This document shows, piece after piece, positions 31,791-37,291 of a stretch of DNA of 64,000 nt (position 1 is the first letter of the stretch; each line of letters starts with the position of its first letter). Location of the stretch: positions 1-64,000 of the forward strand of contig CAIKMJ010000058.1 of NCBI GenBank assembly GCA_903828455.1. The letters are read 5' to 3'. The DNA comes from an uncultured Acidobacteriia bacterium (GTDB lineage: Bacteria; Acidobacteriota; Terriglobia; Bryobacterales; Bryobacteraceae). A model generated the notes under the pieces. That model saw only the letters and a list, made by a program, of their open reading frames with translations. It did no database searches and was not told the DNA's origin. The position numbers and the translations under genes were made by a program.

Positions 31791-33499
<1,709 letters not shown>

Positions 33500-35602: not shown

Positions 35603-36128
35603 GCAGGATGAACTTCTAACGAGACTGGCCGAGCGGGGCCGGGCGCGACGTGGCGCGGTCTGAATCGATATAGAAAGAAGAGTAGCATTACCACGAATTC
35701 AAATGGACAGCGCGCGATAGCGCCGGGTCCGCACCTGCTGCGGCTGAGCCAGGCCGCTGCGGATGGAAAATTCGATGGCGTTCTTGCCGGTGTGATGCCC
35801 GGGGACGGACCCGGTGCGGCCACCCACGTTAGGCCCCGCAGCGTCCCCGCGTTTTCAGGTTCGACTTGAACTCGCGCTAAGTGTGCGGAAAGAAATGGCG
35901 TCCCTAATCGCTGAAAGTTGGAACCCGCTGATCGCAGAGCTGCGAAACCTCAGCAATCTTCGACATCTGTGGGCTTCGGGGGCTAATCAGATGAAAACTA
36001 AACGCTGAATCCGCTCTTTTTAAATTCTCAGTGTTGCTTGGAATCTAAAGACACTATGGTATTGAGTGTATCCCTATGCTAGGTTCTCTTAGAGATGCAG
36101 GTCAGCCGAGGAATTGCTGGGAGCCAAA
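35603..36128. other. Gene-free stretch, nothing recognised
   Basis: Upstream of ureF and of the next plus-strand gene. The frames present are short, lack ribosome sites and show no motif; a stretch around 35715-35870 on the plus strand has coding-like composition but no start. Composition becomes AT-richer from about 35.9 kb. A urease promoter is expected but not assigned. Confidence 0.4.
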
Positions 36129-36482
36129 ATGATTGAAGTGAAGTGTAAAGTCTGTGACACCGGAGTCCTCCACAATATCAAGCGGTATCGCATGAGTGGA
36201 GTTGTAGTGGTGATCGGGTATCTCCTCCTCGTGCCTTCCGTTTTAGGCATAGTGTCCACCGTACTTTTTCAGATCGCGATCGTCGTGGGCTCCGTCCTTG
36301 GCTCCTCGGAAACGAAGGGTTCGACAGCTTACGCCACGCTGATGCCTAATGCCGCTGTGGGTATCTTTTCTATGGTCTTAGGGTTCTCGTTCCTGGTCGC
36401 CGGGCTTCTCGGATGGCTGCTCGTTATGAAGAAAAAAATTCTCCAATGCAATTACTGCGGAGCAGTGGTGGCCGCGTCGTGA
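36129..36482 (+). CDS. Small membrane protein with two CxxC knuckles
   Basis: 117 residues. CKVC at the start (about residue 6) and CNYC near the end (about 108), with two hydrophobic spans between (VVVVIGYLLLVPSVLGIVSTV and IFSMVLGFSFLVAGLLGWLLV). The two knuckles would meet on the cytoplasmic side to form one zinc ribbon. ATG 36129 follows GGGAG by five bases. Codon use is less GC-rich than neighbours. Function unknown. Confidence 0.72.
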   Translation: MIEVKCKVCDTGVLHNIKRYRMSGVVVVIGYLLLVPSVLGIVSTVLFQIAIVVGSVLGSSETKGSTAYATLMPNAAVGIFSMVLGFSFLVAGLLGWLLVMKKKILQCNYCGAVVAAS

Positions 36483-36788
36483 GGATGTTCCGGGGCAGTT
36501 ACGGCGTCTGCTCGCCATACCGCTCCGGCGCACAATCTTGGTCACACCGATTCGCCGCTTCCGGTGCCGCAATAGCGTGTTTAGTCACTCCATCCCCAAT
36601 CTAAGACTTTCATTTCAGGTATTTACGCTTATACGAAGAGTTGCCTAGGGGGAAGCGTGCGTGCCCAAATAAGTCGCTTTGGCGTTAGTTGTACATCATA
36701 TAGAAAAATTAGTTGACGAGGCACTATGTCTTGGGGCAACATTGCAGTTGTCCCTGCCGCAGGATGGTCGAAGTGGGCGATGTAGCGA

Positions 36789-36807
36789 AGGATTCTCGTA
36801 GAATCCT
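36789..36807. repeat. Perfect 8-bp inverted repeat (hairpin)
   Basis: AGGATTCT and AGAATCCT separated by three bases. No T-run follows, so it is not an evident terminator. Confidence 0.6.
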
Positions 36808-36852
36808 ACTCCGGGCGCCTTGGCTTTTAGGTGTTTGGGTGGTTTAAATTTT

Positions 36853-36887
36853 GGGGCTGTTTCTGTTTAAGGGACAGACGCAGCCCC
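36853..36887. repeat. Two-helix stem-loop just before the tRNA-like element
   Basis: GGGGCTG (36853-36859) pairs with CAGCCCC (36881-36887), then a 2x2 internal loop, then TCTGT (36662+200 i.e. 36862-36866) pairs with ACAGA (36874-36878) around a seven-base loop. It ends seven bases before the tRNA-like start. Confidence 0.6.
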
Positions 36888-36894
36888 AGTTGTG

Positions 36895-36970
36895 GCGTCG
36901 GTCAGCCGATGGTTAGGCTGTGCGCTTGGAGAGCGTTACACAATGGGTTCAATTCCCAGCCGACGCCCCA
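36895..36970 (+). tRNA. tRNA-like gene, anticodon GGA, atypical
   Basis: Seventy-six bases fold by eye as a cloverleaf: acceptor GCGTCGG/CCGACGC (7 bp), D stem AGCC/GGCT with loop GATGGTTA (holds GG and A21), anticodon stem TGCGC/GCGTT (four pairs, first mismatched), loop TTGGAGA with T33 and anticodon GGA, five-base variable loop, T stem TGGG/CCCA, T loop TTCAATT, and an encoded CCA. GGA would be serine, but serine tRNAs have a long variable arm and this one does not; base 14 is G instead of A and the discriminator is C. Could be a decayed or specialised tRNA. Confidence 0.55.
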
Positions 36971-37215
36971 CAACTATCTTACGAAACAAGTCTGCTTCGT
37001 TAGCTATCCTTACAGGTTCGCTACAATCTGCTCGACTCCATTCACATGCATTCGTCGAACTAAACAAAATGAGTATTACACTATGTCTGTGTAATCGCAA
37101 TACTAAATATTCAGTTTTCAACAGCGAATCTAGGGTCAGAGTTCATTTTTCGCAAGCGCACATTGCCGGGCGAGGTGCTTGCTCACCCAATTCCGTGCAG
37201 TCTGATTCAGAGAAA

Positions 37216-37291
37216 TGGCGTCCCCAGAGGGATTCGAACCCTCGTTACCGCCGTGAAAGGGCGATGTCCTGGGCCTCTAGACGATGGGGAC
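37216..37291 (-). tRNA. tRNA-Glu (TTC)
   Basis: Complete 76-base cloverleaf on the minus strand: acceptor GTCCCCA/TGGGGAC, D arm TCGTCTAGAGGCCCAGGA, anticodon stem CGCC/GGCG with loop CTTTCAC (anticodon TTC), T arm GAGGGTTCGAATCCCTC, discriminator G and encoded CCA. All invariant bases present. Confidence 0.95.

Follow-up and report, generated by a model that had tools for sequence, protein, structure and literature searches.

The tRNA-like element described here, from the genome of an uncultured Acidobacteriia bacterium, is probably an orphaned tRNA gene that has decayed or diverged strongly, left behind by a small insertion of low-GC DNA at the 3' end of a tRNA-Glu(TTC) gene. It lies in a 64-kb stretch of contig CAIKMJ010000058.1, which is referred to as the window, and the features discussed are listed in Table 1. 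The element is read as decayed or diverged on several grounds: it has the lowest covariance score of the tRNAs in its genome, contacts of its tertiary core are broken, a complete set of canonical serine tRNAs, tRNA-Ser(GGA) among them, is encoded elsewhere and no homologue was found. A small integrative element would have entered by site-specific integration at the tRNA-Glu 3' end and would then have lost its integrase and its other genes. The tRNA-like element would have been unneeded and would have decayed after entry, its broken core being the mark of that decay. Most likely it plays no regular part in translation.

Table 1. Features in and around the tRNA-like element, in positions of the window.
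Feature	Position	Strand	Basis or remark
Direct repeat of 14 bp, AGAAATGGCGTCCC, far copy (possible attachment-site scar)	35891..35904	+	
ORF of 122 aa, accessory	36114..36482	+	relatives in 2/60 genomes
Near-copy of 63 bp (55/63) of the genome's own nrdJ promoter/leader region	36692..36754	+	directed towards the tRNA-like element
Strong hairpin directly before the tRNA-like element	36852..36888	+	inverted repeat, fold
Acceptor helix extendable by six pairs, 2-nt bulge	36888..36975	+	36888-36893 with 36970-36975, fold
G at position -1, can pair with C73 (36967)	36894	+	sequence, 45-gene comparison
tRNA-like element	36895..36970	+	class I body, GGA anticodon, C73, encoded CCA; ARAGORN, RF00005, core comparison with 44 tRNAs
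Direct repeat of 14 bp, AGAAATGGCGTCCC, copy with the last nine bases of tRNA-Glu	37211..37224	+	
tRNA-Glu(TTC), ordinary	37216..37291	-	ARAGORN, Rfam

The ARAGORN program calls the element as a tRNA-Ser(GGA). It is 76 nt long with a short variable region, and a perfect 7-bp acceptor is formed between 36895-36901 and 36960-36966, followed by the discriminator C73 and an encoded CCA at 36968-36970. The anticodon loop, TTGGAGA, holds T33 and the GGA anticodon, the T loop reads TTCAATT with A58 in place, and the D loop holds GG, with G also at position 14. Most of these parts had been listed in the initial annotation, and its sequence, coordinates and assignments (acceptor, CCA, C73, G14, T33, A58, short variable region) all proved right. 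The Rfam tRNA model, RF00005, gives the element 36.3 bits, which is above the gathering score of 29 (901 bases searched), and a genome-wide E of 9.7e-6; a fast-filter Rfam scan of the whole window does not list it. The element folds with a z-score of -3.6, which was equalled by 0 of 200 shuffles. Given this E-value and these shuffles, the tRNA shape of the element exceeds chance.

The genome has 44 other matches to RF00005, which score between 51.5 and 75.8 bits. The covariance score that the initial annotation had asked for thus makes the element the weakest of 45, trailing the next-lowest tRNA by 15 bits. For the comparison of tRNA cores, the same positions were read in all 45 genes by a fixed numbering and from sequence alone. 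A full acceptor was found in every gene (45/45), the element included, and the D stem of the element is intact. Its U27:U43 mismatch in the anticodon stem is of a kind also seen once each in 2 of the other 44 tRNAs. The remaining departures are rarer. Position 14, which makes the 8:14 contact, is A in 43 of the 44 and G in the element; the 15/48 combination is G-C or A-T in all 44 and A15/A48 in the element; the T stem is complete in all 44 and interrupted in the element by an A49:G65 mismatch. Thus the element lacks the tertiary-core contacts 8:14 and 15:48 and a full T stem, though it scores above the RF00005 cut-off. However, the parts that are intact, namely an acceptor of 8 bp when G-1:C73 is counted, the D stem and the CCA, would not be favoured by random decay and argue against decay of a plain kind.

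The serine label of the element depends on its anticodon. Besides a large variable region, bacterial serine identity is reported to involve G73, C72, G2-C71, R4-Y69, C11-G24 and G30-C40 (PMC9976931). Of these features the element has just C72 and G30-C40; its 2-71 is C-G, its 4-69 is T-A and its 11-24 is G-C. In addition, the genome encodes four class II tRNA-Ser genes, one of which has a GGA anticodon and a long arm. The initial annotation had held that the element is no ordinary tRNA-Ser, and the lack of both the long variable arm and G73 agrees with that view; the element is not the cell's serine tRNA.

An origin from the genome's own tRNAs was considered and rejected. The best alignment scores of the element were 63.0 (with tRNA-Cys and tRNA-Ser-GGA) and 61.0 (with tRNA-His), against a partner scoring at least 73.0 for each real tRNA in the same test, which took in 43 of the 44 other tRNAs since two gene labels collided. 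Only one copy of the element is present in the genome at E<=0.001, and a repeat family within the genome was rejected as well.

Homologues were sought in other genomes, in phages and in plasmids. In 60 relatives a 77-nt query had no match at E<=0.001; its top match had E 0.05 over 20 nt. Among 398 further genomes of the class, with the top two candidates per genome scored, nine yielded matches at E<=0.05, of which the strongest covered 28 nt with E 0.001. A covariance model, R1, was also built from the element alone with a structure supplied by hand, and it gives the element itself 122.8 bits. Under stricter filters in the 60 relatives its best other match reached 43.7 bits, and matches at E<=0.01 occurred in 28 genomes. 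Eleven of 34 non-self matches were inspected; all eleven sit on tRNAs called by ARAGORN, ten of them ordinary. The eleventh is a 'Leu(GAG)' call with a short variable region in genome G042; it is one of two odd tRNA calls by a contig start (L146:161-327, contig G042:C49), the other being an Ala(TGC). Phages and plasmids held no homologue at E<=1e-5. Relaxing the threshold to E<=10 brought up four phage records and four plasmid records, each of which covers 45% of the query at most, and two of the four phage matches are 3'-end pieces of annotated tRNA genes (His and Asn). Exact-pattern scans gave 0 matches in both scans of the genome contig collection and 0 in four of five viral contig scans; such scans demand exact matches and distant homologues could escape them. 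The eight viral contigs from the remaining pattern scan were dropped, since they contained no ARAGORN tRNA and no R1 match at E<=10, and by eye they had no likeness to the element outside the scanned pattern. Missing homologues do not prove decay. Of the signs by which the initial annotation would have recognized a decayed tRNA (a low covariance score, no conservation and no transcript), the first two are borne out by the lowest score of 45 and by the lack of a homologue in these searches.

The setting of the element suggests an insertion scar, judging from its sequence features. First, a far-boundary repeat of the tRNA-Glu 3' end is present, in the form of the two 14-bp copies. Secondly, GC content between the repeats is about 0.50 over ~1.3 kb; the initial annotation had noted both the AT-richer DNA and the neighboring tRNA-Glu, and GC is indeed 0.49-0.52 at the element against 0.59-0.65 on either side. 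Third, the 5' side of tRNA-Glu is shared among relatives, since 11 of 15 loci from the same genus have the aminotransferase gene no more than 1.5 kb away, and on the 3' side sharing stops within 20 nt in the loci of 29 relatives. Lastly, the stretch carries an accessory ORF. Because of the repeat, the low GC content, the unshared 3' side and this ORF, an integration at the tRNA 3' end would account for the stretch.

Leaving aside the stretches of the tRNA-like element and of tRNA-Glu, the accessory ORF is the only one of at least 80 aa to fit entirely between the two repeats, and it is not an integrase. Its product is small and hydrophobic with a C-terminal CxxC, and one relative has an added N-terminal Cys motif. 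It was rejected as a known mobile-element gene, with no Pfam match above the cut-off and no NCBIfam match at 0.001; a single weak PHROG match, of unknown function, had E 0.07. No tRNA was found in the loci of its homologues. No empty site was seen: urease genes are absent beside tRNA-Glu in the 29 relatives' loci (up to 1.5 kb on each side), so that no empty site can be defined. The lack of an integrase remnant and of an empty site argues against the insertion-scar reading, and for the same reason integration is something that we infer. A partial second tRNA-Glu copy of 52 nt, which adjoins the full gene much as an integration scar would, was observed in one relative (L091, G024:C15).

The stretch between the ORF and the element contains the near-copy of the promoter and leader region of nrdJ, a gene identified with NCBIfam models for B12-dependent ribonucleotide reductase over 448 residues. 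The copy corresponds to bases 110 to 48 upstream of the nrdJ start codon. Ten of 40 relatives have this leader region at E<=0.01, in all 10 of which nrdJ follows downstream, and of the 18 columns invariant across 11 leaders, 17 are preserved in the copy. It contains TTGACG and, presumably, NrdR operator boxes. No nrdJ is present at the site of the copy; instead, the tRNA-like element begins 141 bases past its end. The tRNA-like part itself has no homology to the leaders in the 11 nrdJ loci. A promoter-like copy that is this well kept and is aimed at the element argues against plain decay. A short hairpin was also observed between the copy and the element, at 36787-36806.

The element may instead belong, as a tRNA-shaped domain, to a longer structured RNA that includes the preceding hairpin, is transcribed from the nrdJ-type promoter copy about 140 bp upstream and serves as a non-decoding mimic or processing signal. 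This is unlikely. The hairpin and element together (36845-36985) fold with a z-score of -5.97, but the opposite strand is nearly as foldable, with a z-score of -5.23. The acceptor helix can be continued across the bulge, and a six-pair extension of this kind arises in about 0.2% of random flanks, yet 6-bp extensions also occur at 2 of the 44 other, ordinary tRNA genes; the extended stem was therefore not accepted as proof of a function other than that of a tRNA. Besides tRNA, no Rfam family reaches its cut-off at the element, and the searches returned no relative in which covariation could support such an RNA.

A further alternative, which is also improbable, is a working tRNA of an odd kind from a mobile element. 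RNase P would retain G-1, HisRS would charge the RNA through the acceptor pair G-1:C73, and the tRNA would insert histidine in response to some of the UCC/UCU serine codons or perform another service to the element that carried it. The G-1, a detail absent from the initial annotation, is encoded together with C73 in only 1 of the other 44 tRNAs, the tRNA-His, and for this reason HisRS would be the first candidate for charging the element, if it is charged at all. Minihelices and microhelices that carry G-1:C73 are reported substrates of HisRS (PMC9976931), and a promoter copy of the nrdJ type lies upstream. In vivo, the anticodon is reported to matter too, the bacterial His determinants being G34, U35 and G36 (PMC9976931). 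The element shares G-1 and C73 with tRNA-His but differs from it in the GGA anticodon, in which only G34 agrees, and in its broken core. The odd working tRNA would moreover have to function with 15:48, 49:65 and A14 broken, and it was not found conserved in the searched genomes. If any synthetase charges the element, HisRS would be a likelier partner than SerRS, going by the acceptor end.

A chance cloverleaf in low-GC DNA is very unlikely, for the element occurs as one unconserved copy but combines the above E-value and folding z-score with an encoded CCA, the D-loop GG and TTC with A58. It would be equally far-fetched to join the separate observations into an insertion-borne hairpin and tRNA mimic that stands under a copied ribonucleotide-reductase promoter and is recognized by HisRS through G-1:C73 while bearing a serine anticodon. 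If this were true, the element would act either as a decoy that is histidylated or as a regulated tRNA that misreads serine codons as histidine.

As a decayed or diverged orphan gene, the element can be compared with several systems described before. Low-scoring and 'hybrid' tRNA predictions and tRNA pseudogenes have been described with tRNAscan-SE 2.0 as having a weak score and a disagreement between anticodon and body (PMC8450103). The element has the tRNA shape, the weak covariance score and the anticodon-body clash in common with those calls; however, it was scored with the Rfam model and not with isotype models, and the two score scales differ. It also differs from such predictions in its insertion-like setting and its upstream promoter copy. 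Phages, plasmids and integrative elements are reported to carry tRNA genes and tRNA arrays (PMC5966550, PMC6409571, PMC5468388). Like those tRNA genes, the element lies in accessory DNA and is redundant with the cell's set. Unlike an array, for which at least 20 clustered tRNA genes form the unit, this is a single gene, with two tRNA genes in the window and no phage, plasmid or conjugation gene recognized alongside. Allo-tRNAs are unusual tRNAs known in Acidobacteria among others; as far as one account of them (PMC7609411) describes, their 12-bp acceptor domain is split 8/4 or 9/3, their variable arm is longer and some have G-1. In contrast, the element has a short variable region and an ordinary layout save for the optional -1:73 pair. 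If the element is decayed, it makes a small case against counting tRNA calls with discordant body and anticodon as decoding tRNAs. Elsewhere in the window, the Rfam family 5_ureB_sRNA matched at 33055-33348 with 82.1 bits, on the opposite strand to the ORF of the urease alpha subunit, a match that may merely reflect conserved coding sequence.
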